Source: an uncultured Agathobaculum sp. (lineage in GTDB: Bacteria > Bacillota > Clostridia > Oscillospirales > Butyricicoccaceae). Taken from it: a stretch of DNA of 34,527 nucleotides. The DNA lies in assembly GCF_944380975.1 (NCBI RefSeq), contig NZ_CALWJK010000022.1:1-34527 (forward strand), written 5' to 3'. Of this stretch, positions 4,479 to 33,529 are shown piece by piece; positions within the stretch are counted from its first letter, which is position 1; each line of letters begins with the position of its first letter. A program made the translations under genes and the position numbers. The notes below the pieces were generated by a model. The model was not told the origin of the DNA, did no database searches, and saw nothing but the letters and a program-made list of their open reading frames with translations.

Positions 4479-5813
4479 ATGAGTGAACAGAAAAACGGGT
4501 TTGGAAGCATGGAATTTGGTACGGAAAACAGTCTGGAAGTATTATTCGGCAGCTTCAGCGCACCGCCGGTGGATCTCGGTGATGCGGGAGCACAGGTAGC
4601 GGCGGAAGCAGCTGAAACGACAAGCAATGCAAAGCAGGAAGTCATGTCCGAAACGCCACAGGCACAGGAATCCACGCCGCAAGCGCCGGTCCAGATGCCG
4701 CAGGCACAGCCCAAAGCGACCGCTACGCCGGAAGCACAGGAAGACCCTTCGCCGCAGTCCACGAAGACGACCGGTCAGGTGATAGACCTGTTCGGCGCCG
4801 TCGCAGAAGACGGTGCAGACGCCTTGCTCGCAAAGCTCGCCGGGAAGTCGCCGGTATTCGAGTACGGTTCTATCAAGGATGAGATCAACGATCCCACCCT
4901 TACCTTTGAGCAGCTGCGCGTCAAGATGGCGGCAGACTGCCCGGAGCTCGAAGCGCGTGCGCATGTCTCGTGGACGGTCAGCTATGCGGGCATCACAGAA
5001 CGGGTCACGGATGCGGAAAACAGTATTTTTGAGGTAAAAGCTAAGATCGAGAAAGGAAAAAAGTTCAAGGAAGTAGTCAAAAAGCTGAAACCAAAGGACA
5101 AAGAGCCAGTTTGTGTAGTCAAGCCTGCCGTCACGGCGCAAAAAAAAGGCGTGCTGCCGTTTCCACCCTACAAAGGGATGTTTGTTAGCACGGAGCAGGC
5201 CGCGCAGTCGGATAAGGCGATCGCCTATATCCCCGCGCGGGATGGCAAAGTGTACGAGATACGGCGCAACGAGATCGGTACGTTTATCGCACCTTCGCAG
5301 TGCATCGCAGAACTCGAGGACATCCGGGCAGGCTTTCAAATGAGCCTGCCCCGGCTCCCAGCATCGCTGCTAGCACAGATTATCGCTTTTTTCCGTCGCG
5401 TGTGTGTGGAATACGGCCGAGATCTGGAGGCGCTGGTCAACGTGCTGTGGGATCGTCAGGAGAAAGAATATGTCCTGCACGTTCCGCCGCAGAAGATCGA
5501 CGCCATGAGCGTCAAGACCGACCTGTCGCAACAACCAGACCCCGCGCGCTTCCTGCACGTCATGGATGTGCATTCGCACAACACCATGTCGGCACGGTTC
5601 TCCAAAGTGGATGACCGGGACGAGCAGGCCACGCGCCTGTACATGGTCATTGGCCGTCTGGATCGGTATTACCCGGAGGTTCGCTGCCGCTTTGCGTGCG
5701 GCGGCCGTCATGTGGAGATCCCGGCAGAGCAGGTCTGCGAGCGTGCGGACGTCCCTTTCGCGCCGGAATGGCTGCAAGCAGTCCATGATGGCAGTCTGAA
5801 GGAGGCGGCATAA
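4479..5813 (+). CDS. JAMM/JAB-domain isopeptidase-like protein (PRTRC protein A-like)
   Basis: The protein has 444 aa. Residues 30-100 are a low-complexity Ala/Pro/Gln linker. Residues about 125-225 form a conserved domain with SWTVSYAGITE, a basic helix and VKPAVTAQKKG. The C-terminal Mov34/MPN (JAB) domain (about 250-415) has the full zinc motif: H365-S-H367, seven residues, S375, then D378. JAMM enzymes cleave isopeptide or C-terminal bonds of ubiquitin-like proteins. In PRTRC-type plasmid loci a JAB protein sits beside a ThiF/E1 protein, as here: the next gene starts directly after this stop codon. The start is fixed by GGAGG eight bases upstream. The substrate is unknown; the middle domain might itself be a beta-grasp or partner domain, which is inference. 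Confidence 0.85.
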   Translation: MSEQKNGFGSMEFGTENSLEVLFGSFSAPPVDLGDAGAQVAAEAAETTSNAKQEVMSETPQAQESTPQAPVQMPQAQPKATATPEAQEDPSPQSTKTTGQVIDLFGAVAEDGADALLAKLAGKSPVFEYGSIKDEINDPTLTFEQLRVKMAADCPELEARAHVSWTVSYAGITERVTDAENSIFEVKAKIEKGKKFKEVVKKLKPKDKEPVCVVKPAVTAQKKGVLPFPPYKGMFVSTEQAAQSDKAIAYIPARDGKVYEIRRNEIGTFIAPSQCIAELEDIRAGFQMSLPRLPASLLAQIIAFFRRVCVEYGRDLEALVNVLWDRQEKEYVLHVPPQKIDAMSVKTDLSQQPDPARFLHVMDVHSHNTMSARFSKVDDRDEQATRLYMVIGRLDRYYPEVRCRFACGGRHVEIPAEQVCERADVPFAPEWLQAVHDGSLKEAA

Positions 5814-6539
5814 ATGCGGTTTCCCGTATCTTGTCCGATCCATATCGTGATGATCGGCTGCGGCGGTACCGGCGGGCATGTTGCTCCACACTTGTACCGC
5901 CTGCTGTACTCAGTTTTCCGTCCGTCTACTGTAATCCTGTGTGACGGGGATATTGTAGAGAAGAAAAACCTTGTTCGGCAGAACTTTGTCGCCTGTGACC
6001 TTGGCCGGAACAAAGCCGCCGTGCTCGCAGAGCGGTATTCCGCGGCGTTTGGGATGGAATGCAGCTATGTTCCGGACTATATCGAAAGCGCAGAGGAACT
6101 GCAAAAGCTCCTCCGCTCTTCGCAAAAAGATGCGCTGGTGATCCTGATTGGCGCGGTAGATAACAACCGCAGCCGTCAGCTGTGCAATGAGGTGTTTTAC
6201 CGATCGCGGGATCTGGTCTACATTGATTCCGGCAACGGCATGGCGAACGGCCAGGTTGTCTGTGGCATTCGCAAAGGTGGCCGAACCGTACGCAAACCTG
6301 TTGCGGGGTTTTATCCGGATATCCTCGATCCCACGGACAAATTTCCATCGGAATTGTCCTGTGCAGAGGCTTCCGTCTCCTCGCCGCAGGCCATGACCGC
6401 CAATATCATGGCGGCAACACTGGTACTCTGTATGCTGTACAACATCATTGCCGGCGGCGAGCTTGATACCCGTATGACGACCTTCTCCAGCAAAACGGTC
6501 AATGTCCGGCCGCTGCTCTCGAAACGGAGGGCGGCATAA
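5814..6539 (+). CDS. ThiF/E1-like adenylyltransferase (PRTRC ThiF-like)
   Basis: The protein has 241 aa. A Rossmann nucleotide-binding loop reads IGCGGTGGH (residues 14-22), followed by the E1/ThiF signature DGDIVEKKNLVRQNF (44-58) with the ATP-contacting Asn, Arg and Gln and a downstream Lys at 67. A Cys in LSCAEAS (C183) lies where E1-like enzymes of this group keep their reactive cysteine. Such enzymes adenylate the C-terminus of a ubiquitin-like or sulfur-carrier protein. The start follows the preceding stop without a gap and is served by AAGGAGG; the stop overlaps the next ATG by one base, so translation is coupled. Partners are the JAB protein upstream and the E2-like protein four genes downstream. 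No thiamine or molybdopterin genes are nearby. Confidence 0.9.
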   Translation: MRFPVSCPIHIVMIGCGGTGGHVAPHLYRLLYSVFRPSTVILCDGDIVEKKNLVRQNFVACDLGRNKAAVLAERYSAAFGMECSYVPDYIESAEELQKLLRSSQKDALVILIGAVDNNRSRQLCNEVFYRSRDLVYIDSGNGMANGQVVCGIRKGGRTVRKPVAGFYPDILDPTDKFPSELSCAEASVSSPQAMTANIMAATLVLCMLYNIIAGGELDTRMTTFSSKTVNVRPLLSKRRAA

Positions 6540-7897
6540 TGGCACAGATCCCTTATGTCTGCGGCCGTCTGGGCGAGCTTACGCAGGATATCCGGTGGCG
6601 TACAGACCAGCTTCCCGCTTTGCGGGAGGCCGACGGTGCCGCGGCGCTTCGCCAGATCGCGCAGCACTTGCAAAAGCTGGTATCGGCACTGCGGGAGGCT
6701 GCCCTGCTGCTCGAAGAAGCCGGCCTGCATGAAGCTGCAGCATATACTGCCCAGCTTAGCGCGGCCGCCAGTGCGTTTCATATCCGCACCGAGGATTACA
6801 GCCGGCTCACTGCCGCGTTTGCCGATTGGCTACAGCGTATGTCGCCGCTGCTACCGAACACCGAAACCAAAACGGTAAGTGCCGCTGTGATTGGCCGACT
6901 GATGAACAACGTCCGTCTCGGGTACTATCCCACTGAAGCGGCACACGTTGGTTGGCTGAAAGCCGCGCTCCGGTTCCCAGAAGGCAAAGCGGTCAATCTG
7001 CTGGACCCCTGCTGCGGTGAGGGCGATGCGCTCCATCAGCTCGCAGACGGCGAGAACGCAGTGACCTATGGCGCAGAACTGGACGAAAGCCGTGCGGAAG
7101 CCGCACAGACTGTGCTGGATCATGTGGCGATCGGCAGCTACTATTTCGCCCGCATTTCACGCAGCGCATTCCATCTGCTGTTTCTCAACCCACCGTATCT
7201 GCAAATGTACGGCGGTGCGCGGAGCGAAAAGCGGTTCCTTGGCGAGAGCTACGACCACCTGATGATGGGCGGCGTACTGATCTACATCATCCCGTATTAC
7301 CGGCTTACCGATGACGTGTGCAACTTTTTGGCAGCCCACTTTGACCGACTGATGGCATACCGCTTCTGCGGGGAGGAATTCCAAAAGTTCCGCCAGATCG
7401 CTATCCTCGGCGTGCGCAAACCGCGCGCGGAAAACCCGCGCATGGCTGGACTGCTGGAAATGGTGTCGCTTCATCCGGACAAGCTGCCTACGCTCGATCA
7501 TATCCCGCCGGAGAGTTATCCACTGCCGGACGCAGAAAAGGCGGTCTCCCTGTTTCAGGGCGCGCAGTTCAACGTGCGCGAGCTTGCCGAGCAGATGCGC
7601 CGCATGGGCAGTATGCTGCCGAAGCGCTCTGCGCTGGATGGACAAGAAAAACGCCCGCCGCTGCCACTCACAATCGGCCAGATCGGTCTGGTGGGCGGTT
7701 CAGGACTGATCAATGGGCTGATCGAGTGCGAAACACCTCATGTCATCAAAGGTCAGGTCATCAAATCCACCCGCAGGCGGACCGGCGACCAGTACGACGA
7801 ATGTGACGGCAGGGCGACAACCGAAATCATCGAAACAACCAGCAACAAGATGGTGTTCAACCTGCTCACGCCGGATGGTGTGAAGCTGCTGGCATGA
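6539..7897 (+). CDS. N6-adenine-type DNA methyltransferase-like protein (DUF6094-like)
   Basis: The protein has 452 aa. An N-terminal helical region (1-105) precedes a class I methyltransferase fold: LLDPCCGEGDAL (154-165) is the SAM-binding loop and FLNPPY (215-220) the amino-methyltransferase catalytic motif IV; a GYYPTEA segment (128-134) resembles motif X. A C-terminal 150 residues may hold a target-recognition or partner domain. By family it should methylate adenine in DNA, perhaps protecting the element or marking its replication; no restriction nuclease is adjacent. I recall similar proteins annotated DUF6094 on Clostridia plasmids and integrative elements, but this name needs a profile search. 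The ATG overlaps the E1-like stop by one base. Confidence 0.82.
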   Translation: MAQIPYVCGRLGELTQDIRWRTDQLPALREADGAAALRQIAQHLQKLVSALREAALLLEEAGLHEAAAYTAQLSAAASAFHIRTEDYSRLTAAFADWLQRMSPLLPNTETKTVSAAVIGRLMNNVRLGYYPTEAAHVGWLKAALRFPEGKAVNLLDPCCGEGDALHQLADGENAVTYGAELDESRAEAAQTVLDHVAIGSYYFARISRSAFHLLFLNPPYLQMYGGARSEKRFLGESYDHLMMGGVLIYIIPYYRLTDDVCNFLAAHFDRLMAYRFCGEEFQKFRQIAILGVRKPRAENPRMAGLLEMVSLHPDKLPTLDHIPPESYPLPDAEKAVSLFQGAQFNVRELAEQMRRMGSMLPKRSALDGQEKRPPLPLTIGQIGLVGGSGLINGLIECETPHVIKGQVIKSTRRRTGDQYDECDGRATTEIIETTSNKMVFNLLTPDGVKLLA

Positions 7898-7911
7898 AAG
7901 AAGGAACAAAA

Positions 7912-8205
7912 ATGAACGCAGTAAATGAGCATGTCATTCATGAAGTACCGTTCCCGCCCGGTCAGATCGTTGTGACACGGCGCATTGCAGACGAGCTGAA
8001 CAGTCTGGTCATCGGCCATCTGCTCAGCCGCCATCTGCATTGTGACTGGGGCGACCTGTGCGAGGAGGACTGGAAACTCAATGATGCCGCGGTGCGGCAT
8101 GGGGAACGTCTGCTATCCGCCTACAAAGCAGCAGGTCAGAAGGTGTTTATCATCACCGAATGGGACCGTTCCGCAACCACGGTGTTGTTCGCAGACGAAT
8201 ATTGA
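7912..8205 (+). CDS. small plasmid-related protein, 97 aa
   Basis: The ATG at 7912 is preferred over 7894 because GAAGGA lies six bases before it. The sequence PPGQIVVTRRIADEL ... CDWGDLCEEDWKLND ... FIITEWDRSATTVLFADEY matches a family common on plasmids and integrative elements of many phyla (pattern PLGQIVAT...GDWGD...D...N......G.RL.S.Y......WIITE.DRS.TT.LLP.EY). That family is usually annotated only as 'plasmid related protein' and its function is unknown. Its presence supports the mobile-element reading. It lies 14 bases after the methyltransferase gene in the same operon. Confidence 0.85.
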   Translation: MNAVNEHVIHEVPFPPGQIVVTRRIADELNSLVIGHLLSRHLHCDWGDLCEEDWKLNDAAVRHGERLLSAYKAAGQKVFIITEWDRSATTVLFADEY

Positions 8206-8216
8206 GGTGAAGAAGT

Positions 8217-8516
8217 ATGTTGAGATTGGATCTGAAAGGCTTTGTCCGCGCGCTGGAAACGGTGCCCGAGCAGGAAATCAATGGGGCGCCACTCCTTGGC
8301 GAGGGGTATCTAACGGAGTGCATCGCACTGCCGTTCCTGATGGGCAAGTACATCTCATTGCAGGATGTCGACTTTGCCGCATTCGACCCGGAAGACGCAC
8401 GCGCGATGTACTACCGCTGCGAGGAAGCAGATCACCTTGGCGGTTTGGCTCTCCAGCTGTATCAGCCTGCAGTACATGCAAAACCGGTGCCGCAGCCGCA
8501 GATCGCTTTTGTCTGA
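8217..8516 (+). CDS. hypothetical protein, 99 aa
   Basis: A GAGGTGA ribosome binding site stands six bases before the ATG. The protein begins MLRLDLKGFVRALETVPEQE and ends with a Pro/Gln/Val tail. It is acidic and soluble with no recognised motif. It was considered as the missing ubiquitin-like protein because of its size and place between E1-like and E2-like genes. However, it has no C-terminal di-glycine and no clear beta-grasp pattern, so this is unsupported. It is likely translated as part of the operon. Confidence 0.65.
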   Translation: MLRLDLKGFVRALETVPEQEINGAPLLGEGYLTECIALPFLMGKYISLQDVDFAAFDPEDARAMYYRCEEADHLGGLALQLYQPAVHAKPVPQPQIAFV

Positions 8517-8529
8517 GGGGGTGACGTTC

Positions 8530-9114
8530 GTGCGAAGCTATGAAAACCTCCAATATGCGTTCCAACAGCTCGAGCTGGCAGCTGCCTATTACGCGGCTGG
8601 TAAGCTAGACGAATTCATCCGAAATACAGGCAGTCTGCTCACAGGTGACGAGGATTTCCTCTATGCCAGCTGGTATGAATTGCTCTATGCACTGGCGGAT
8701 TTCGTGGATATCCGCGACGACGAGGACACCATGACGAACCGAATGTACTTTTCGGACGAAACCATGCGCGTCTACTTTGCCCATGCGCAGGCGTGCGCCG
8801 CGCGGGATGGCATTCCGCTGAAGCAGGAGGCGTACTATCAGAACGCCTGCTCCTATGTCTATGAAACCCTGCTGGATGCATGCCCGTACAGCGGTTACTT
8901 CCGCGTTGTCACGCAGCCCCACCACGAATACGGCTACGGGCTGTCTGTCTGGATTGCGGTAGAAGCTTTTACGGACTGGGAGCCACTGCTCTTCGCTTTA
9001 TTGGACATCATGGGATTTTTCCGCTCCAGCGTAGAGGTGCTGATGGCCTCCGGTGAAATCGGCAAGGTTCTTCCGTTTTCTGAGAACAAGCAGCAAGCAA
9101 AGGAGGCAGCATAA
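8530..9114 (+). CDS. hypothetical protein, 194 aa
   Basis: The GTG at 8530 is chosen because AGGGGG ends nine bases upstream; the GTG at 8521 would abut the ribosome binding site. The product (VRSYENLQYAFQQLELAAAY at the start) is rich in Tyr, Phe and acidic residues and looks mostly helical, with paired helices resembling tetratricopeptide-like packing, though no repeat is clear. There are no membrane segments or catalytic motifs. The stop overlaps the next ATG by one base, so it is coupled to the E2-like gene and may work with it. The family is not recognised. Confidence 0.68.
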   Translation: MRSYENLQYAFQQLELAAAYYAAGKLDEFIRNTGSLLTGDEDFLYASWYELLYALADFVDIRDDEDTMTNRMYFSDETMRVYFAHAQACAARDGIPLKQEAYYQNACSYVYETLLDACPYSGYFRVVTQPHHEYGYGLSVWIAVEAFTDWEPLLFALLDIMGFFRSSVEVLMASGEIGKVLPFSENKQQAKEAA

Positions 9115-9782
9115 TGGAGACCAATGTGCGTGAAGCGGTGCTCTATCTCAATCCGCTCAAAACCGTGGTCAAGACAGAACTGATCCGCGGAGATGGCACG
9201 CGTCTGGTCAAGCACATCCCCGGTGACGCACTGGCAAGCGAGCTGCAAGCGCACGTCCATTTGGCACCTATGCGTAGTGGCCTGCTCCCTCCCGGCTGCA
9301 TTGCACTGACCGCCTTTCAAGACGGCTGGGACGTCACGCTGGACTGCGGTTTAGATCATTGCACGGTCTGGTACCATAACACCGAGTTTCCGGACTTCCC
9401 GCTGCCGCGCATTCTGCTGCGGTGCCAGGTAAAGGGCGACCGGATCTCCGGTTTTGCGCTCGGTATTGCGGATACCGGCATCATCACGCTGGACACCCAG
9501 ATGTACCGCTGTCCCTTCCCGAACGTCAACGGATTTCACCTGTGCACCGGCAGCAACCAGTTTACCGGTTATGATACACTCTGGAAGCTGCGTTCGCTGC
9601 CCAGCCGGGTGCTCTCCCTGCCGTTCGGGGACGACTACTACAAGCCGGACTGCACCAAGCTGAATTTGTCCGCCCGCGACTTATTCGAGCACTTAAAGGA
9701 CAAGGCATCTTCGTACTATTACAGCGATGTGCTGATTCCGATGGGCAAAACCGTGACGGACTTTATCGGAGGTGCGCTATGA
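9114..9782 (+). CDS. PRTRC protein B / prokaryotic E2 family D-like protein
   Basis: The protein has 222 aa. The diagnostic stretch is CPFPNVNGFHLCTGSNQF (133-150). PRTRC-B/Prok-E2_D proteins carry a similar PF.NV...G.(V/L)C.GS segment with the cysteine in the place of the E2 active site, which here would be C144. Family knowledge places such proteins with ThiF/E1-like and JAB-domain partners, exactly the set in this operon. The expected role is to take a ubiquitin-like tag from the E1-like protein and pass it to a target; no tag protein is obvious in the window. The ribosome binding site AAAGGAGG is good; the stop overlaps the next ATG by four bases. The call rests on a short motif plus context, and a profile search would settle it. 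Confidence 0.6.
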   Translation: METNVREAVLYLNPLKTVVKTELIRGDGTRLVKHIPGDALASELQAHVHLAPMRSGLLPPGCIALTAFQDGWDVTLDCGLDHCTVWYHNTEFPDFPLPRILLRCQVKGDRISGFALGIADTGIITLDTQMYRCPFPNVNGFHLCTGSNQFTGYDTLWKLRSLPSRVLSLPFGDDYYKPDCTKLNLSARDLFEHLKDKASSYYYSDVLIPMGKTVTDFIGGAL

Positions 9783-10558
9783 CAGGGCAGGAACTGAGAC
9801 GGCAGCTTTGTGAGCCGTTTGCCGCTGCGGACGTTGAGTGGCGCGTGACCAAAATGCGAAACTCAAACAGCGAGGGACTGGTCGTGGCGTTTATCGACAG
9901 CCGTGCGATCCAGAACCGTCTGGACGATGTGGTAGGACCGTTTTGCTGGCGCACGCGGTTCATTCCGTGGCACCAGTATGTCCCGAAGCCGGGCAAATAC
10001 GATGACCCGTCTGAGGTAAAGACACCCGTATCTTCCCAACTCTGCGGACTCTCCATCTATCTGGAGGAGCGCAAAGAGTGGGTGGAAAAGGTAGACGGTG
10101 CGGAAAACACCGACATCGAAGCCATCAAGGGCGGTATTTCGGACAGCTTTAAGCGCGCGTCTGTGCTTTGGGGCATCGGCAGATATCTGTACGAGATTCC
10201 GGCAAAATGGGTATCGCTGGACAAGTACAAGCAGATCGCCCGTCCAGCAGACTTAAACGCGTACTATGCAGAGCAGCTGCAGAAGCTGGGGCTGTGCGCA
10301 GCGCAGTCATCTAACACTGGTAACGTACCGGCGGATATCTACGCTGTGCGCGGCCTGCAGCCGGCGCCCATGCAGGGCTATCCGGCCGCTGTGTGGGTCG
10401 ATCTGGTCACACCGGATAACCGTGCGCTCAAGGTGTTCAGCCTCGGCACAAAGCCAGGGCTGGCCAGCGGCGTGCGCATCCAAGGCGCAAAGATCGTACA
10501 GCGAAACAGCGCCGGCGGCATGTACTACGAGCTGCAGGACTACCGGACGGCAGCGTGA
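9779..10558 (+). CDS. Rad52/Rad22-type single-strand annealing protein
   Basis: The protein has 259 aa. The Rad52 core is visible: a GPFCWRTRFIPWH strand region (53-65) and the signature segment GGISDSFKRASVLWGIGRYL (118-137), in which basic residues line the ssDNA groove. Proteins of this family form rings that anneal complementary single strands and are common phage and mobile-element recombinases. The C-terminal 90 residues are less conserved. The gene overlaps the E2-like gene by four bases and is followed after about 14 bases by a Rad50/SMC-like ATPase, giving a recombination pair. Start: ATCGGAGG before the ATG. Confidence 0.88.
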   Translation: MTGQELRRQLCEPFAAADVEWRVTKMRNSNSEGLVVAFIDSRAIQNRLDDVVGPFCWRTRFIPWHQYVPKPGKYDDPSEVKTPVSSQLCGLSIYLEERKEWVEKVDGAENTDIEAIKGGISDSFKRASVLWGIGRYLYEIPAKWVSLDKYKQIARPADLNAYYAEQLQKLGLCAAQSSNTGNVPADIYAVRGLQPAPMQGYPAAVWVDLVTPDNRALKVFSLGTKPGLASGVRIQGAKIVQRNSAGGMYYELQDYRTAA

Positions 10559-10572
10559 GAGGAGGAATCATG

Positions 10573-12360
10573 ATGGCACAGTTTTCGGTTTTGCAGATCG
10601 AAACGCTGAAAGTCACCGGCTTTGGTCGGTTCGCTGCCGAGCAGGAATGGTCTTTCGGCCCGATGACCACAGTCACCGGCCACAATGCACAGGGCAAAAG
10701 TACGATCGCAGACGCGATCGCTTACGCCCTGACCGGCGCTCCGTTCTTCGGCGGACGTGATCTCGACCATCTGCACCACACGGACGCCCCCTTTCTCCGG
10801 GTGGAGATGCTTGTCCGCACGGACGACGGCCAGACGCATGAGATCCGCCGGGTGCGGCAGAACAGCAAAAGCATTCTTTCCGTGGACGGCACTACGACCA
10901 CGCAGGAGCGCTTTGCCGAGCGTTTCGGCAGCCGTGACCTGATTCTGTCTTTGCTCAACCCCCTGTATTTCACCGAAGTGCTGGGCGGCAGCGGTCGCAA
11001 GCTGATCGAACAGTATCTTCCGCCGGTACCGCATGAAGCGGTCATGGCAAAGCTCAGTGAGCACATGCGCAGCATTTTGGGAAACGATCGGCTGGAAATG
11101 CCGGAGATTTATCTGAAAGACAAGCGCGATACGCTGAAAGAGCTGGAAAAAGACCGGCTGGTGCTGGACGGCCAGATGCAGCAGGCCGAAAACCAACGGG
11201 CAAAGCTGCAAAAAGAGCTTGGCGAAAAGCAGGTGCTGCTTGCCCATACTACAGCGGCGCTCGAGCCTCTGGCGCGCAAGCAGCAAGCCTACGACACTTC
11301 GGCAATCGAATCACAGATCGCAGGGCTGGGCGCCCAGTATGACTCGGTTACGGAAGGTCATGCCGAACAGGAGCGCGCCCGGCTGCAGGCGGAACTGGAT
11401 GCCGCGCAGCAGCGGCAGTATGAATCTGCCGGCGCGGCACAGCTGCAGCAGATGCAAAACCAGCTTCAGCTTCTGTACGGTAAGTACAACGATGAAGCCG
11501 GTCGCTTACAGTATTTGCAGCGGCAAGGCATCTGTCCGACCTGCCTGCGCCGTTTAGATGGCGCCGCATTTCCCGAAGTACAGGCGGCCTTTGCCCAGCG
11601 GCTGCAAAAAATTCAGGCGGACGGTATCGCTATCCGGCAGCAGGGCGAAGCACTCGCCGCGCAGGAAGCTCAGAACCGTCAGCAGTTTGAAGCTCAGAAA
11701 GCTGCCGCGCTCTCCCGTCTTGCCGCAGCACTCAAAGCGCTGCCTACCGGCAGTGCCGCACAGCAGCGTGACAGCATCAAGGCGAAGATCAAGGAGCTGT
11801 CCGCAGCCCTTGTGCTGGGTGGCCTGACCGCCGAAGAGGTGCAGCAGTACCAGAGCCTGTCCCGTGAGCAAGGCAAGCTGGAAAGCGAGATCGAGCAGAT
11901 CCAGAAGCTGATGGACAGCCTGCCCAAGGGGCAGAAAGAGGCGCTCGCGCAGCTGGACGAAGAAATCCGCGTCGTAAACGACCAGATCACAGCGGCAAAG
12001 GCGTATCAGTCCGAACGGGCGGCGCTGCTGTTTGCGCCGGTGCGTATGCACAAGGCCGGGCTCCGGCTGTATGAACCGGTAAAGGAAAGCGGGGAAATGC
12101 GGGACGTGTTCAAACTGACCTATGACGGTCGGGATTATATCCAGCTGTCCTTGTCCGAGCGCGTCCGCTGCGGATTGGAGGTGGTGGAACTATTATCTAC
12201 GCTTTCCGGCAAGTGCTATCCGCTGTTTGTAGACAACACCGAGTCCTACTGTGACTTCGGCGCCGCGCAGCACAGCGGCCAGACCATCCTTTCGCGGGTC
12301 GTCCCGCGGCAGACGCTGCAGGTGAATGCCGTACAAGCACCGCAGAAAAAGGCAGGGTGA
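10573..12360 (+). CDS. Rad50/SMC-like AAA ATPase with zinc hook
   Basis: The protein has 595 aa from the ATG at 10573 (seven bases after AGGAGG; the ATG at 10570 is also possible). Walker A is GHNAQGKST (36-44). Long Gln/Lys/Glu-rich coiled coils on both sides flank a zinc-hook CPTC (321-324). Near the C-terminus an ABC-type signature region (LSLSERVRCGLEVVEL) and a Walker B strand (CYPLFVDNTES) complete the ATPase head. Rad50/SbcC proteins tether DNA ends, usually with an Mre11/SbcD nuclease. No such nuclease is seen here; the partner may be the Rad52-like protein just upstream. The coils are much shorter than in SbcC (over 1000 aa), as in phage-type SMC-like ATPases. Confidence 0.88.
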   Translation: MAQFSVLQIETLKVTGFGRFAAEQEWSFGPMTTVTGHNAQGKSTIADAIAYALTGAPFFGGRDLDHLHHTDAPFLRVEMLVRTDDGQTHEIRRVRQNSKSILSVDGTTTTQERFAERFGSRDLILSLLNPLYFTEVLGGSGRKLIEQYLPPVPHEAVMAKLSEHMRSILGNDRLEMPEIYLKDKRDTLKELEKDRLVLDGQMQQAENQRAKLQKELGEKQVLLAHTTAALEPLARKQQAYDTSAIESQIAGLGAQYDSVTEGHAEQERARLQAELDAAQQRQYESAGAAQLQQMQNQLQLLYGKYNDEAGRLQYLQRQGICPTCLRRLDGAAFPEVQAAFAQRLQKIQADGIAIRQQGEALAAQEAQNRQQFEAQKAAALSRLAAALKALPTGSAAQQRDSIKAKIKELSAALVLGGLTAEEVQQYQSLSREQGKLESEIEQIQKLMDSLPKGQKEALAQLDEEIRVVNDQITAAKAYQSERAALLFAPVRMHKAGLRLYEPVKESGEMRDVFKLTYDGRDYIQLSLSERVRCGLEVVELLSTLSGKCYPLFVDNTESYCDFGAAQHSGQTILSRVVPRQTLQVNAVQAPQKKAG

Positions 12361-12366
12361 CGAAGC

Positions 12367-13392
12367 ATGGCATACAAAACCTTTTCCGTCGTGATGGCGG
12401 CTCGCAAAAGCGGGCTGCCGGTAGAGGATTGTGGTCTGCGGCAGCTACATATCAATTGTCCGTTTTGCGGCGACCGCAAACGGCGACTGTACCTGTACAC
12501 AGACACCAATCAGTACCATTGCTTTAACTGCCGGGCGCATGGCAACGCGGTAGATCTGTACGCGAGACGCACCGGGTTATCCTATGCGGACGCGTATCAC
12601 GAGCTGCTGGGGGATAGCCTGATCCACTTCCCAAAGCCGGCGACAGAGCTGCCCCCTGAGCGCGAACCAGCGCCGCTGTCACAGCGCGATATGGTGTACC
12701 GCGCGATGCTGGAGCTGCTGCCCCTGTCCGCGGCACACTGGGATAACCTACTATCTCGCGGCCTGACCGATTCCGCCATCCGGCAGAACGGCTACCGCAC
12801 ATTGGCGTTTGGCAAGGAGCTGCGCGACTATATCGCCGCGCAGCTTTCCTCCCGGTTTGATCTGAATGGTATCCCCGGCTTTTTCTACGCGCAGGGCACG
12901 TGGCGCATGTGCGCATACAGCGGCCTTTTATTGCCGGTGCGCGCGGCGGACGGCCGTGTGCAGGGCATCCAGATCCGTCGCGATGAAGCTGTGCACATGA
13001 AGTACGCATGGATGTCCAGCACCGGCAAGCCGTATGGCACCGGCGCACGGAGCTGGGTGCACGTTGCTGGTGACCGCAGCCGCAAAGAGGCGGTGATCAC
13101 CGAAGGGCCGATCAAGGGCGATGTGTCCAGCGCACTGACCGGCGGCGGACTGTTTGTCTGCCTGCCCGGCGTCAACGCGATTTCCTTTCTTCCCGACACG
13201 CTGCGCGCGCTTGGCGTGCGGCGTGTATGGGAGGCGTTCGATATGGACAAGCGGAACAACGCACAGGTGGCAGACGCGGCCGCGAGACTGCAGGCAGAAC
13301 TGAAAAAAACCGGCATCCCTTGCCGCACGATGGCATGGGACCCGGCCTGTAAGGGCATTGACGATTATCTGGCGATGAAGCGAAGTGCATGA
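12367..13392 (+). CDS. CHC2 zinc-finger / Toprim-like primase (DUF3854-like)
   Basis: The protein has 341 aa. A DnaG-type zinc finger at the N-terminus has CPFC (31-34) and HCFNC (51-55). The central part is divergent. A Toprim-like domain carries ITEGPIKGDV (244-253; conserved Glu) and AFDMDKRNN (290-298; the Asp-x-Asp metal site). DnaG-family enzymes make RNA primers for replication. The Toprim half resembles DUF3854 domains of plasmid and phage primases. It starts six bases after the ATPase stop, and its end overlaps the proposed upstream start of the next gene. Together with the helicase and clamp of the second operon it implies that the element primes its own replication. No C-terminal helicase-binding domain is seen. 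Confidence 0.85.
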   Translation: MAYKTFSVVMAARKSGLPVEDCGLRQLHINCPFCGDRKRRLYLYTDTNQYHCFNCRAHGNAVDLYARRTGLSYADAYHELLGDSLIHFPKPATELPPEREPAPLSQRDMVYRAMLELLPLSAAHWDNLLSRGLTDSAIRQNGYRTLAFGKELRDYIAAQLSSRFDLNGIPGFFYAQGTWRMCAYSGLLLPVRAADGRVQGIQIRRDEAVHMKYAWMSSTGKPYGTGARSWVHVAGDRSRKEAVITEGPIKGDVSSALTGGGLFVCLPGVNAISFLPDTLRALGVRRVWEAFDMDKRNNAQVADAAARLQAELKKTGIPCRTMAWDPACKGIDDYLAMKRSA

Positions 13393-14374
13393 GGAGGAAT
13401 TGCATTATGACAACCAATCCGAACGGCTTTATGGAGTACAGAACAGCACCGACGAAAGCCAGCTGCTTGGCAAATTTCTGTATTACTCGCTGGCCGATGT
13501 ACTGGTACAGAAGGAGGACTTCGAGCGCATTTGCACGGCGCTGGATTTTCCTTATTCCGGACGGCGCATCTCGGTTGTGGACGCGTTCAAAAACGCCACT
13601 GGCAAGGTCACGCGCCGCACGGTAGCAGGTGCCAGCGGTTCACAGGAGATCTTCCGAATCTACTGCCGCGACAATATGCGGGACGGAAACCTGTATTCGC
13701 GCGAACTGGTGCGTGAAACCGTTGGCCTGCGTACCAACCGCTATGACAAGCTAGCGAACATCTGCTATGACCGCGACACGGACCGGATGTATCACGACAT
13801 TGTTGAAAACGATCCGTCCCTTGATGTAGAACAGCTTTGCCGGAACATGGAGGACAAGTTTCAGGTATTCCGCAATTGCCTTGGCCGCAGCCAGATCGAT
13901 ACGATCCTGCTGCACTACCTTGGCACGCTGGACGCCCTGCCAATCTCGGTTTACGGCAAGCTGTACTTTGTCCCGCGGGATAAGATGCACAAGGTGGGCC
14001 TGTTCGAAGATTTCCTCGAAGAGCTCAATCGCGCCAACCAAAACGACAAGGCGCTGGTAGTCAACAGCTTCTATGTAGCGGACGACGAAAAACAACGGGA
14101 AAAGATGGCTTCTGAATTTTATACGCTTGTGCGCAAGGAGGCACAGGAATATCAGGAGCGCGCTATGTATCTGATCGACAGCGGGTGCCAGAGTCCGTCC
14201 ATCATGGAGCGCTGGATTGGCCGCATCGACGATCTGAAACAGAAAAAACAGCGCTATGAGGCGCTGTTCAGAAAGGAATTGAGTGAAACCGACGCGGAAT
14301 TCGACTCCCTCCAGCTGTATTCGCAGGAATTGCAGATCCGGGCTGATGGGATTCGGATACAGCGCGCGGCGTAA
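13385..14374 (+). CDS. conserved mobile-element protein of unknown function, 329 aa; start disputed
   Basis: The protein is soluble and mostly helical, with a basic coiled-coil tail (DDLKQKKQRYEALFRK) and a central IDTILLHYLGTLDALPISVY core. As read, it uses a GTG at 13385 overlapping the primase stop. However, AGGAGG is best placed for the ATG at 13407 in another frame, whose first residues (MTTNPNGFMEYR) would join this frame at NSTDESQLLGKF if one A were restored near 13442. So either the N-terminus is remodelled by an indel or an unusual start is used. The 3' part is duplicated at 20630-21250 and 24047-24116. It may belong to DUF6744, but I am not sure of that name. It is the last gene of the operon, followed by a strong terminator. 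Confidence 0.75.
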   Translation: MHEEELHYDNQSERLYGVQNSTDESQLLGKFLYYSLADVLVQKEDFERICTALDFPYSGRRISVVDAFKNATGKVTRRTVAGASGSQEIFRIYCRDNMRDGNLYSRELVRETVGLRTNRYDKLANICYDRDTDRMYHDIVENDPSLDVEQLCRNMEDKFQVFRNCLGRSQIDTILLHYLGTLDALPISVYGKLYFVPRDKMHKVGLFEDFLEELNRANQNDKALVVNSFYVADDEKQREKMASEFYTLVRKEAQEYQERAMYLIDSGCQSPSIMERWIGRIDDLKQKKQRYEALFRKELSETDAEFDSLQLYSQELQIRADGIRIQRAA

Positions 14375-20629: not shown

Positions 20630-21250
20630 TTGGAGGTCTGCTATGATCGCGACACGGACCGAATATACCGCGATGTCGTAGAAACCGCCCCGTCCCTTGA
20701 TGTGGAACAGCTTTGCCGGAGCATGGAGGAAAAATTTCGGGTGTTGCGCAACTGCCTTGGCCGCAACCAAATCGACACGATTCTGCTGCATTACCTCGGC
20801 ACGCTCGACGCGCTGCCGATCTCGGTTTACGGCAAGCTGTACTTTGTCCCGCGGGATAAGATGCACAAGGTTGACCTGTTCGAAGATTTCATCGAGGAGC
20901 TCAATCGCGCCAACCAAAACGACAAGGCGCTGGTCGTAAACAGCTTCTATGTAGCGGACGACGAAAAGCAGCGGGATAAGATGGCTTCTGAATTTTATAC
21001 GCTTGTGCGCAAGGAGGCACAGGAGTATCAGGAGCGCGCTATGTATCTGATCGACAGCGGGTGCCATAGTCCGTCCATCATGGAGCGCTGGATTGGCCGC
21101 ATCGACGATCTGAAACAGAAAAAACAGCGCTATGAGGCGCTGTTCAGAAAGGAATTGAGTGAAACCGACGCGGAATTCGACTCCCTCCAGCTGTATTCGC
21201 AGGAATTGCAGATCCGGGCTGATGGGATTCGGATGCAGCGCGCGGCGTAA
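20630..21250 (+). pseudogene. N-terminally truncated second copy of the 13385-14374 gene
   Basis: From the VCYDRDTDRIYRD stretch to the final MQRAA, this matches the last two thirds of the 13385-14374 product. The first 45 or so residues carry a dozen substitutions, whereas the last 85 are almost identical, including silent positions. The first 120 residues are lost, and only a TTG with GAGG immediately after it could start translation. The frame is still open over 206 codons, so the duplication is fairly recent or the 3' part has been homogenised by gene conversion. A different hairpin follows it than the one after the intact gene. Confidence 0.85.
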
Positions 21251-30364: not shown

Positions 30365-30469
30365 AAGAGTGTAATCATGTCAGAGTAATTTTGTCAGAGT
30401 AACCCGCCCAGGGGGCAGTCTGCCTATCTGGGTTGTACAAATGCTCGAAACCTGATTCACCACACAATG

Positions 30470-30516
30470 AAGACCGTACAGAAATCCGATTTATGGATGC
30501 TGCACGGTCTTTTTTT
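30470..30516 (+). terminator. attenuator-like intrinsic terminator in leader copy 2
   Basis: Identical to 4397-4443: AAGACCGT/ACGGTCTT stem with inner CAG/CTG and ATCC/GGAT pairs, then seven Ts. It lies about 35 bases before the helicase start. A frame from the ATG at 30467 runs through it in phase with the helicase, unlike copy 1. Confidence 0.65.
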
Positions 30517-30550
30517 GTGCAAATTCAAAAAGATCGGAGGAAAAACGAAT

Positions 30551-33529
30551 GTGAGGGAAAACAGATTGATGGAGGTACGGTATCAGGACAGTGCGCAGGG
30601 CATCATGCTCACCGGCTATGCGGACACAGTAATTGCAGATCCGCAGTACAGGCTGGTCGGTATCCGCTTTGGCGGCTATCCCGAGATGGTGCAGGGCATG
30701 TCTGCTGCGATTTGCGGTGGCGCCACGGTCACCATATCCGCAGAGGAACAAACGTATGTGCTGACCGCAGAACGTGGACGGTATCGGAAAACGCTGATCC
30801 ATGAGGGTTCGTACACGGTAGCAACCATTCTGTGGGATGACAAAAGCGTCAGCAGGAACATGTCGGAGAACAAGAACGAGGAGAATGCCGATGATTCGGA
30901 AAGAAGAAATGAAGGAAGTCAGACACGGGAAGCCTATTTGCTCTGCGCAGCAGGGGATCAAGATGCGTTATTTCACGAAATAGATCGTGTCAGCACGATC
31001 CCTATGATCCCGCAGTTCGCGGATTACCTGATCGCAGAGCTGCAGGCACGGAACATTCTCACCAGATGCCTTGTGCGGACAGTGTACGAGCCGTTCGAGG
31101 CATGGCAGCTTACCTGCACACCGGAAGATCAGAATATTGCGGATGTGGTGACAAGCGGCCTCAAAAGCGGCGAGATCCGCATACCTGGCACGCAAGACGG
31201 CCAAACAGACGCCTTTCGTGAGATTGGCGGCGTTGCAAGCTATCTGAATGCGTTCGGATCTGTCATTGCCGCCCGTATCCGTGGGCAGTTTGACCCGCTG
31301 TATGACCCGGCAACAGAGCCGTTGTCAGAAGCCGTACTGGAGTTGAACCGCTATGTTGAACAGACGGCCGGTTATCCCTTGTATGGCGCGCAGCTTGCGG
31401 CAGCGGAAGCGCTGCGCCGTAGATTGCAGAAAGACAAGCTCGGGCTGCTGATCGCGGAATGCGGCAGCGGAAAAAGCAAGGTCGGCAGTCTGGCGTTGCA
31501 GGCGTATTTTCTGCAGAAGCAGCGGAAGTGCCTGCACATCGTCCTTTGTCCGTCCCACATGACGGGCAAATGGGTACGGGAGCTGGATGAAACCATTCCG
31601 GATTCGCTGTCTGCGGTCGTGCAATCGCCGGAAGACTTTGACGCCCTCTATGCGGAATATGTCCGCGGCAGCCGAACGGTCTTTGCCGTACTGTCCAAGG
31701 AAACCGCGCGGGATGGCTATATGCGCCGACCGGCGGTGCGCTGGAACGTGATAAAGCGTGGCTTTACCTGCCCGGACTGCGGCAGTGTAATCCAGATGGA
31801 ATTTCTGGACTGCGGCAAAAAGACGCTGATAGACGCGACATCGGACTACTTCCGTACCGAGACCCGCGCCAACCGCAAGTGCGAATGCTGCGGCGCTGTC
31901 CTTTGGACGGCCACCACCGCGGAGGAGCAGAGCGAATGGGTACGCATCAGCCATGTAGGCTATATCCATCGCCGATTTGCCGGACAGGCATTAAAGGCCT
32001 GCAAAACCGCGGCTGCGAAAAAGCAGTTGGAGGAACTGGGGCGAAACCCAAACCGCTTCATGACCGCCCGCGGCGCCTGCCGCCGGTTTCCGCTCAGTAC
32101 CTATATCAAAAATAAGTACAGCGGCAAAATAGACGGCTTAATTGCGGATGAGCTGCACCAGTTTGCAGCGAACAGCGGACAAGGCGACGCAATGGGCGAG
32201 CTGTTTGCCGCCGCAAAGAAGTGCATCGGCATGACGGCGACCCTGATCAACGGCTATGCGTCGGGTATTTTCTATCTGCTGTACCGCACCTGTTCGCAGC
32301 TGATGCAGCAGGACGGACAGGCCTTCGCTTCCCAATCGCACTTTGCGCAGGAATACGGCGTAATCGAGGACACCTATACAGTGACAGAAGGCGGATACAA
32401 TTCCAACCGTCGTGCGGTCAAGCGAAAAAGGCGCTCCCGACAGCGGCCCGGCGTATCGCCGCTCGTGTACAGCCGTTTCCTGCTGGAAAGCGGCGTATTC
32501 CTCACCCTGATGGATATGGGTAAGGAACTGCCGGAGTACGAGGAAATCCCTGTGCCCCTCTCACTGCCGCAGAATCAGTATCAGGCGTATGAGCAGCTGG
32601 AGAAGAGTTTTCAGGCGCTTTTCAAGGATCGCAGCCGGGAAGGCCGCAAGTTGGCGCAAAAGCTGCTGTCTGTTTACCTCAATCTGCTGATGGCCTATCC
32701 GGATCAGCCGTATGGACATAAGCCGATCGTGCATCCGGCCACCGCAGATCCGATTTTGATACCAGAGGACAGCGGTTCGCCTATGGACGAAACCGAAAAG
32801 GATGCAAGGGCGATTGAGATCATCCGGGGCAAGGTTGCCGCCGGGGAGCGCGTGCTGCTCTACGTCAACTGGGTGCGTCTGGATACTCGGACACGCCTAA
32901 AGCGCTTTCTCACGGATGCCGGCATCCGCGCCGAGATCATGGAGGACAATGTGCCGCCGCGGAAACGCGAGGCATGGGTGGCAGAAAAGCTTCGCCAAGG
33001 GATGCAGGTGATGATCACCAATCCAAGCCTGGTCGAAACCGGGCTGGATCTCAATGACTTCACCACGCTGATCTTCTACGACATCGCATTCAAGCTGTTC
33101 ACGTTCCGGCAGGCAAGCCGCAGGTCATGGCGCATCAACCAGACCGCGCCGCGGGTGGAGGTCTACATCTTGTACTACCGCCATACCATGCAGGAGCGTG
33201 CCGTCCGGCTGATGGCCTCCAAGCTGTCGGTCGCCGGCATCATCGAAGGCGGCGTCATGACGGATGAAGGCCTGGCGGCGATGAGCGAAAGCGAGGATAT
33301 GATGTCCGTGCTGGCAAAAGAGCTGGCCGAAGGCATCCGGCATGAGAATGCCGTAGCGGACATCGCTGCCTCCTTCCGCAAGATGGCCGTGCTTCACCCG
33401 GTGCACAAACAAACCGAACAGAAAGCAGAACAGAAACCAGAAAGTACACCCGTACAGAGAAAAACGATACCGATGATACAGCCTGTGCAGGAGCCGGAAC
33501 AGCTATCGCTCTGGGAGCTGGCAGGCTAA
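30551..33529 (+). CDS. SF2 DExH helicase with internal zinc fingers
   Basis: The protein has 992 aa from the GTG at 30551, ten bases after GGAGG; the ATG at 30549 is followed at once by TGA. Residues 1-110 form a beta-rich N-terminal domain. Motif I is AECGSGKSK (about 301-309). FTCPDCGS and a second Cys pair CECCG form a zinc module (about 405-450). Motif II is ADELHQF (about 531), motif III GMTATL (about 560). The C-terminal RecA domain includes VMITNPSLVETGLDLNDF and motif VI RQASRRSWRINQ (about 850). The zinc module between motifs I and II is unusual. It most resembles DEAD/DEAH helicases annotated on large Clostridia elements and is expected to unwind or remodel replication and recombination intermediates. 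The clamp gene follows after 14 bases. Confidence 0.9.
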   Translation: MRENRLMEVRYQDSAQGIMLTGYADTVIADPQYRLVGIRFGGYPEMVQGMSAAICGGATVTISAEEQTYVLTAERGRYRKTLIHEGSYTVATILWDDKSVSRNMSENKNEENADDSERRNEGSQTREAYLLCAAGDQDALFHEIDRVSTIPMIPQFADYLIAELQARNILTRCLVRTVYEPFEAWQLTCTPEDQNIADVVTSGLKSGEIRIPGTQDGQTDAFREIGGVASYLNAFGSVIAARIRGQFDPLYDPATEPLSEAVLELNRYVEQTAGYPLYGAQLAAAEALRRRLQKDKLGLLIAECGSGKSKVGSLALQAYFLQKQRKCLHIVLCPSHMTGKWVRELDETIPDSLSAVVQSPEDFDALYAEYVRGSRTVFAVLSKETARDGYMRRPAVRWNVIKRGFTCPDCGSVIQMEFLDCGKKTLIDATSDYFRTETRANRKCECCGAVLWTATTAEEQSEWVRISHVGYIHRRFAGQALKACKTAAAKKQLEELGRNPNRFMTARGACRRFPLSTYIKNKYSGKIDGLIADELHQFAANSGQGDAMGELFAAAKKCIGMTATLINGYASGIFYLLYRTCSQLMQQDGQAFASQSHFAQEYGVIEDTYTVTEGGYNSNRRAVKRKRRSRQRPGVSPLVYSRFLLESGVFLTLMDMGKELPEYEEIPVPLSLPQNQYQAYEQLEKSFQALFKDRSREGRKLAQKLLSVYLNLLMAYPDQPYGHKPIVHPATADPILIPEDSGSPMDETEKDARAIEIIRGKVAAGERVLLYVNWVRLDTRTRLKRFLTDAGIRAEIMEDNVPPRKREAWVAEKLRQGMQVMITNPSLVETGLDLNDFTTLIFYDIAFKLFTFRQASRRSWRINQTAPRVEVYILYYRHTMQERAVRLMASKLSVAGIIEGGVMTDEGLAAMSESEDMMSVLAKELAEGIRHENAVADIAASFRKMAVLHPVHKQTEQKAEQKPESTPVQRKTIPMIQPVQEPEQLSLWELAG

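Follow-up and report, generated by a model that had tools for sequence, protein, structure and literature searches.

The window analysed here is a stretch of 34,527 bases, one whole contig (NZ_CALWJK010000022.1) of the 2.34 Mb draft genome (88 contigs, 91% complete) of an uncultured Agathobaculum sp., and it encodes a JAB peptidase, a ThiF/E1-like adenylating enzyme, and an E2-like protein within an operon of replication and recombination genes. This locus quite probably specifies every component of a ubiquitin-like conjugation system, carried by a mobile and probably conjugative element, with the modifier supplied by a proprotein in which a ubiquitin-like protein (Ubl) is fused to the JAB peptidase. 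The preliminary description of the locus, as an E1-E2-JAB cassette, is supported in part: the three enzymes are present, but that account missed both the Ubl, encoded at approximately 4830-5150 and fused to JAB, and the JAMM glutamate E317.

The set lies among eleven plus-strand genes (4479-14374) with inter-gene gaps of -8 to +11 bases, in the order Ubl-JAB, ThiF, DUF6094 methyltransferase, three small genes, E2-like, Rad52/Erf, Rad50/SMC-like ATPase, DnaG-type primase, and DUF6744, and the right end of the window holds a helicase gene and a clamp gene (Table 1). The three open reading frames (ORFs) at 4479-5813, 5814-6539, and 9114-9782 and their tight operon with the methyltransferase are as previously described.

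The ubiquitin-like domain and its Lys-Gly junction

Approximately 225 residues precede the PRTRC_A-like part of the JAB protein, and profile comparisons identify residues ~118-224 as homologous to stand-alone Ubls of sister plasmids. A plasmid-type Ubl profile built from 13 sequences without any gut sequence (eight stand-alone mature, one tailed, and four Bacilli fusions) matched 64 of the 77 fused ORFs from loci of the window's own type (gut-type loci; individual loci carry L numbers) at E≤10, 31 of them at E≤0.01, and all 64 matches fell within the N-terminal domain; at E≤0.01 the profile also matched a single ORF that is not a known Ubl (L066 1926). With hhalign, the gut-type domain gave probabilities of 93.4 against the plasmid-type, 92.2 against the PRTRC_C-plus-phage, and 91.2 against the phage-only Ubl profiles, compared with maxima of 4.9, 2.2, and 1.7 for 100 column shuffles each, and 11 other operon profiles did not exceed 2.4. 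The stand-alone Ubl of L008, which adjoins ThiF, matched Prok_Ub (E=0.0054), and that of an Aeromonas plasmid (L010) matched PRTRC_C (E=6e-4), both below the curated cut-offs. The identification of the N-terminal domain as the known JAB-N domain was rejected, as PRTRC_A matches residues 250-413, after the Lys-Gly (KG) junction, and the Ubl profile matches before it. With a mixed Ubl profile, the host draft genome, the complete S. variabile record OY725881 (167.8 kb), and two further hosts yielded the fused copy alone; this profile contains the window sequence and is therefore weighted to this type. An extra match in a third further host (E=0.063) was taken as noise.

Lys-Gly ends the Ubl domain in 77/77 fused gut-type ORFs. 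Of these, 72 are non-redundant, and 71 have a two- to seven-residue spacer between KG and a Y[KRA] motif; the surrounding residues vary. All ten Bacilli plasmid fusions examined have KG at the junction and a complete JAMM motif. Stand-alone Ubls of sister systems stop at the aligned Gly, with ends such as SGAKKG, PKKG, SGAKNG, GGAKG, QKKG, KNKG, VKTKG, VKTNG, and KAG, and single phage Ubls ending in KG are found in L106, L107, L109, L111, L112, and L125. Genes near E2-JAB-ThiF on phage or virus contigs encode Ubl units in tandem, with GVKG or GTKG closing every unit; L011 (Bacillus phage vB_BauM_KLEB27-3), L108, L128, and L130 have four units followed by 1-17 extra residues, L113 and L118 have two units and no tail, and by their sequence these appear to be a phage "polyubiquitin". 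Short tails also follow the Ubls of L129 and of the bacterial locus L098 (Thermosipho). The most economical interpretation is release of the Ubl by JAB at the junction Gly.

On the best ThiF tree of 49 sequences, fusion needs four changes (3-4 in the trees of a bootstrap that had not converged), two of which are forced by well-supported branches. In L136, a separate JAB gene directly follows that of a Ubl terminating in KG; the tree places this locus beside the fused L132 and L143 (support 98/95).

Mature stand-alone Ubls also occur without a match to the family JAB profile or PRTRC_A, on plasmids L008, L009, L010, L134, L137, and L140 and in the genome of L102; a Prok-JAB search of these systems returned nothing on the plasmids and four weak matches below cut-off in the L102 genome (3.9 Mb). 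Tails or repeats on stand-alone Ubls were present in 7 of 15 JAB-bearing systems (L011, L098, L108, L113, L116, L128, and L129; mature Ubls in L106, L107, L109, L111, L112, L125, L127, and L136) and in none of seven JAB-less ones (L102 and the six plasmids; ThiF was not looked for in L137). With kinship ignored, Fisher's test gives p=0.038 one-sided and 0.051 two-sided, which fits JAB processing without proving it. The count covers fetched loci, leaving out L133 and L139, where the plasmid encodes a mature Ubl and has JAB at another place, the near copies L114, L115, L118, L119, and L130, and loci in which no Ubl was recognised (L110, L117, L120-L124, L126). In L133 (NZ_AP024502) and L139 (NZ_CP065512), ThiF occurs at two places each and the JAB match lies away from the mature stand-alone Ubl; each plasmid probably hosts two separate Ubl systems. 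In L027 (8618-10762) and L046 (8570-10774), Ubl-JAB and ThiF lie within one open frame, which reads naturally in L027 and looks like a frameshifted read in L046, and a triple fusion is not claimed.

Catalytic residues, operon conservation, and related systems

Translation places the JAMM residues of JAB at H365-S-H367-x7-S375-x2-D378, with E317 in addition, the GCGGTGG motif of ThiF at residues 15-21 and its candidate cysteine C183 within FPSELSCAEA, and the candidate cysteine C144 of the E2-like protein within PFPNVNGFHLCTG. The positions given in the preliminary description were thus correct, and the residues are conserved in relatives far beyond chance. C183 is Cys in 72/72 gut-type ThiF proteins and 38/38 others, and C144 is Cys in 54/54 gut-type E2-like proteins and 22/22 others, including Aeromonas and phage relatives. 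E317, H365, H367, S375, and D378 are each kept in 71/71 gut-type proteins; outside the gut type, E317 and H365 are kept in 30/30 and H367, S375, and D378 in 29/30 each, owing to one gap. For these counts, identical rows, ThiF sequences below 150 residues, E2 sequences below 140, and JAB stretches below 120 were dropped, and the window stands in both classes. The full HxHx7SxxD motif is present in 75 of 77 fused gut-type ORFs.

ThiF of this type was found in 5/245 genomes of a class-wide sampling, the window's own included. A scan of viral contigs with a single protein found nothing, and an alignment-based scan found 28 loci. An initial set of six loci (L007, L012, L014, L016, L017, and L019) shares this gene order, with an additional gene behind ThiF in some of them, and the order is kept in further gut-type loci long enough to show it, E2-less exceptions aside. 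Among 49 long gut-type loci (those with 9.5 kb or more of sequence downstream of ThiF; two of the contigs enter twice), the methyltransferase, both small genes, E2, and AAA are each present in 43, Rad52 in 42, and the primase in 39. This co-occurrence and the conserved catalytic residues bear out the earlier placement of a PRTRC-like E1/E2/JAB set inside an operon with Rad52, a Rad50-like protein, and a primase. E2 is absent from six long loci (L037, L054, L064, L070, L083, and L099), in five of which the downstream ORFs resemble, by eye, insertions, deletions, or chromosomal genes; genome-wide searches of four E2-less hosts found E2 on other contigs in two and none in two. The earlier account had further expected C144 to be conserved and the JAB and ThiF genes to stay together; the former holds, but outside the gut type JAB and ThiF do occur apart, with ThiF, E2, and Ubl lacking a detected JAB on plasmids L008, L009, L010, L134, and L140 and on contig L102.

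The resemblance to PRTRC families stands as homology and falls short by curated cut-offs. The JAB protein is a significant homolog of PRTRC_A (48.9 bits, E=5.4e-13; cut-off 101.8), ThiF scored 104 bits against PRTRC_ThiF (E=7.9e-30; cut-off 144.75), and the E2-like protein reached 21.3 bits against PRTRC_B (cut-off 131.45), with all three below NCBIfam membership. In Pfam, Prok-JAB scored 25.6 bits (cut-off 25), ThiF 56.3 (28.1), and Prok-E2_D 15.6 (below its cut-off of 25). In alignment A5 of 64 E2 sequences including the window, 61 match Prok-E2_D and 59 match PRTRC_B at E≤0.01; at this threshold the window E2 itself matches only PRTRC_B, and a Prok-E2_D search of the host genome did not pick it up. 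Profile searches of PDB sequences yielded no believable solved homolog, the E2-like protein matching a single chain at E≤10 (Syn-F4-Link, E=1.5); the UBC fold of the 9114 product and the beta-grasp fold of residues 118-224 are expected at the level of the family. By these scores, the three enzymes are remote relatives of the PRTRC families.

The closest comparisons are with PRTRC loci (TIGR03734-TIGR03738) and with the type 6d E1-E2-JAB-Ubl systems, of which the locus is a remote variant. It shares with PRTRC a PRTRC_A-type JAB, ThiF, a PRTRC_B E2-like protein, a PRTRC_C-like Ubl, the plasmid setting, and, on the Aeromonas plasmid too, a clamp gene nearby. It differs in its scores, in having the Ubl fused to JAB with no stand-alone PRTRC_C Ubl, and in its operon of Rad52, AAA, primase, and DUF6094 genes. 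No PRTRC ParB was recognised among the portion of window ORFs scanned with NCBIfam, and ParB of the S. variabile record scored 29.3 bits against a PRTRC_parB cut-off of 278.6. Type 6d systems have a JAB with an N-terminal domain, a Cys-bearing E2 without the usual His, and a small stand-alone Ubl with a conserved terminal Gly (Iyer, Burroughs, Aravind 2006; PMC1779556). In the window, likewise, a single operon encodes E1, a Cys-bearing E2, and a JAB carrying an N-terminal domain, but the Ubl is the N-terminus of the JAB protein, with the terminal Gly kept (77/77), and the His that type 6d conserves absolutely beyond its E2 Cys was not seen. The system is not PRTRC by curated cut-offs and appears from its sequence to function like type 6d.

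Type 6e shares tandem Ubl repeats (polyUbl) with the phage relatives, but its E2 is inactive and its JAB is usually fused to E1 (PMC1779556). In the accessible part of the same source, JAB release of the Ubl of phage TAPI is proposed, one TAPI-JAB fusion is noted in an E. coli prophage, and no E1/E2 is described in TAPI neighbourhoods. As far as the available text of PMC7159879 goes, FtsH ternary conflict systems have an associated JAB proposed to free a Ubl from a larger polypeptide, but there the fusion partners of the Ubl are E2 and EAD1 rather than JAB, and a RING E3 and caspase-like effectors accompany them. Bil, Bub, and CBASS Cap2/Cap3 share the bacterial E1-E2-JAB conjugation logic, and BilC is said in the accessible text of PMC11354881 to process BilA before conjugation; the window differs in its Ubl-JAB proprotein, in the lack of immune genes recognised alongside, and, relative to CBASS Cap2, in having separate E1 and E2 rather than an E1-E2 fusion. 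Among PADLOC models (CBASS type II and Bil; Bub was not seen as such), ThiF matched only parts of E1-E2 models, with BilD at E=0.0022. In the accessible literature, key Bub, Bil, and Burroughs work excepted, no description was met of a Ubl-JAB proprotein in an E1/E2 system or of polyUbl in this family, and the literature listings, as far as available, contained no title on how PRTRC systems work.

Proposed mechanism, rival explanations, and target

From these observations we infer a pathway of cleavage, thioester formation, and conjugation. The modifier would be produced as the Ubl-JAB proprotein, and JAB would cleave it after Lys-Gly (G224), in cis or in trans, to give a Ubl with a C-terminal Gly. 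ThiF would adenylate the Ubl and carry it as a C183 thioester, the Prok-E2_D-like protein (C144) would pass it to a target, from which the released JAB could also strip it, with the single start codon setting modifier and deconjugase at 1:1. Such a system would provide a widespread E1/E2/JAB family with the modifier it has so far lacked. If conjugation does take place, a ubiquitin-type system would be tied to mobile-element DNA replication and recombination, not immunity, and tag-plus-protease proproteins and polyubiquitin would exist in bacterial mobile elements and phages.

Several observations weigh against this pathway. On the Ubl side, hhalign against a two-sequence PRTRC_C profile alone failed (probability 0.19), Prok_Ub was absent among the 25 Pfam families listed (of 27) for 65 gut Ubl domains at E≤1, and the Ubl profile matches span mostly strand 1 to helix 1. 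Alignment A5 of E2 contains no invariant or nearly invariant His. In a set of 75 E2 sequences, position 174, taken as the likely place of the downstream His, is D in 68, H in 6, and S in 1, and the window has G172 where 72 of the 75 have Asn. Two fused ORFs (L067 and L083; 2/77, dropped from the residue counts) stop before the JAMM motif. The Ubl of L127 ends in NG and that of L116 in LG plus one residue (LG-K), not KG. The association of tails and repeats with JAB is weak, and JAB alongside an already mature stand-alone Ubl is common (8/15 cases).

The Ubl might instead remain on JAB as a targeting or regulatory domain while E1 and E2 handle another Ubl or a substrate C-terminus, as in Cap2. 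All but one of the 78 gut-type Ubl matches do share a chain with JAB, the remaining one being cut by the end of its stretch, and known E1-E2 fusions can act on non-Ubl substrates, as described in the accessible part of PMC12355090. This arrangement is nonetheless improbable given that KG is invariant although the following residues and spacer vary, that relatives encode the same domain type as a free protein ending at that Gly, and that no other Ubl was found in the searched host genomes. A sulfur-carrier system of the ThiS/MoaD kind, with ThiF activating the Ubl for thiocarboxylation and the 9114 product not an E2, would agree with ThiF family membership and a single terminal Gly on the Ubl; it appears very improbable beside an E2-like protein with an invariant Cys in 43/49 long gut-type loci, and a Pfam scan of 20 window ORFs revealed no recognisable family of sulfur metabolism.

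The choice of target is a separate matter. Clamp, clamp loader, and Rad52 genes recur as neighbors and therefore favor a replication or recombination substrate, which is plausible by guilt by association; the likeliest targets would be proteins of the same operon or replication module, such as the sliding clamp, Rad52, primase, or AAA protein. A clamp gene directly follows ThiF in 24/75 gut-type loci and lies anywhere in the available, often short, stretch in 30/75. On the Bacilli plasmids L141, L142, and L146, Rad52-dnaN lies upstream of E2, fused Ubl-JAB, and ThiF; in L143, dnaX and delta' follow ThiF, and dnaN lies upstream on the Aeromonas plasmid. A target outside the element, among host or competing-phage proteins, would make the locus a defense or counter-defense cassette; this is somewhat unlikely and, being compatible with the machinery proposed above, not exclusive of it. 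Related E1/E2/JAB systems are immune operons, known (CBASS, Bil) or putative (Bub), according to the accessible parts of PMC13373217 and PMC11354881, and related gene sets lie on phage contigs. The AAA, primase, methyltransferase, and helicase proteins match PADLOC defense models (for example, LmuB, E=2.5e-14; DRT DnaG-like, E=6.1e-12), which may reflect general families only. Against an outside target, PADLOC matched neither Ubl-JAB nor E2, and ThiF only in the adenylation part of E1-E2 models; the neighbors are replication and recombination genes, and the scanned window ORFs include no recognisable nucleotidyltransferase or effector.

The element is probably conjugative because the S. variabile record (L020, circular, 167.8 kb) has, at 34099-46176, ParA, ParB, RepA_N, and a 1242-residue TraG/VirD4-type coupling protein (187.9 bits). 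In the window's genome, one type IV secretion coupling-protein match lies on another contig, which may belong to a different element. The S. variabile record also has, by eye, chromosome-like genes. At its most ambitious, the proposal would be a self-processing ubiquitin on conjugative elements of gut Clostridia, freed after KG from its own deconjugase and conjugated to the element's sliding clamp or to Rad52 or primase, switching replication versus annealing-dependent recombination as a prokaryotic counterpart of PCNA ubiquitination/SUMOylation, with sister jumbo-phage systems expressing the modifier as polyubiquitin; taken as a whole, this is speculative and rather unlikely.

Gene layout and minor observations

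Table 1. Features of the window and tandem Ubl genes of related loci (coordinates of the latter refer to each locus).
Feature	Position	Strand	Evidence
Ubl-JAB proprotein, 444 residues	4479..5813	+	Prok-JAB 25.6 bits; PRTRC_A 48.9 bits at residues 250-413; Ubl via hhalign and hmmsearch
Ubl-JAB layout: low-complexity N-terminus, Ubl domain, KKG junction, JAB-N region, JAMM peptidase	4479..5813	+	
Ubiquitin-like domain, residues ~118-224, ending K222-K223-G224 (predicted mature C-terminus)	4830..5150	+	Profile homology to plasmid-type Ubls
K222-K223-G224, predicted JAB cleavage after G224	5142..5150	+	KG conservation; stand-alone Ubls end at aligned Gly
JAMM peptidase core E317, H365, H367, S375, D378	5409..5783	+	Residue counts in relatives
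ThiF/E1-like adenylating enzyme, 241 residues, candidate reactive C183	5814..6539	+	PF00899 56.3 bits; PRTRC_ThiF E=7.9e-30
DUF6094 methyltransferase; NPPY motif spotted by eye	6539..7897	+	PF19587 296.9 bits
Small protein g7894, found in part of gut-type loci	7894..8205	+	No family match in Pfam and NCBIfam
Small protein g8217, ending -F-V-COOH; relatives mostly [FY]-hydrophobic at end	8217..8516	+	Translation, ORF comparison
g8521, between g8217 and E2	8521..9114	+	GTG 8521 start inferred; longest ORF begins at ATG 8365
PRTRC_B / Prok-E2_D-like E2, 222 residues, candidate C144	9114..9782	+	PRTRC_B E=1.4e-4
Rad52/Erf-like annealing protein	9779..10558	+	PF04098 49 bits; phrog_1097 E=2e-40
Rad50/SMC-like ATPase	10555..12360	+	PF13514, PF13476
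DnaG-type primase with CHC2 zinc ribbon	12367..13392	+	PF01807 35 bits; PF12965 37 bits
DUF6744 protein	13385..14374	+	PF20529 307 bits
SF2-type DNA helicase	30467..33529	+	phrog_62 E=2.3e-33
Sliding clamp (DnaN-like), cut by contig end	33544..34527	+	phrog_947 E=8.7e-12; NF004184 E=1.9e-9
Tandem Ubl genes, phage/virus contigs, near E2-JAB-ThiF	L011 2676-3425; L108 4543-5295; L128, L130 4804-5553; L113 5529-5951; L118 5369-5791		

A partial second copy of the DUF6744 gene lies at 20630-21250, its C-terminal part nearly identical, and the stretch between both copies may be an insertion or rearrangement. The DUF6094 methyltransferase and the g7894 domain form a single ORF in six gut-type loci (L028, L029, L030, L031, L096, and L103), which suggests that the two act together. 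In some elements (L007, 15710-16501; L012, 2788-3483), a protein labeled bactofilin-like by eye is encoded in the interval that separates the methyltransferase from ThiF or from the clamp gene.

The g8217-type genes, two upstream of E2, are poorly conserved, yet F or Y stands at position -2 in 61/64 gut-type copies. Among further E2-bearing loci, an ORF ending [FY]-hydrophobic-COOH lies upstream of E2 in 28 of 34, or in 26 of 31 without the gut-type fragments L019, L069, and L090, compared with 9/271 background ORFs; the count was made over L008, L131-L146, L098, L102, and L106-L128, with near copies and L010 excluded. Outside the gut type, this small protein is often acidic before its end (DDFI), a terminus that presumably resembles the tip of SSB.

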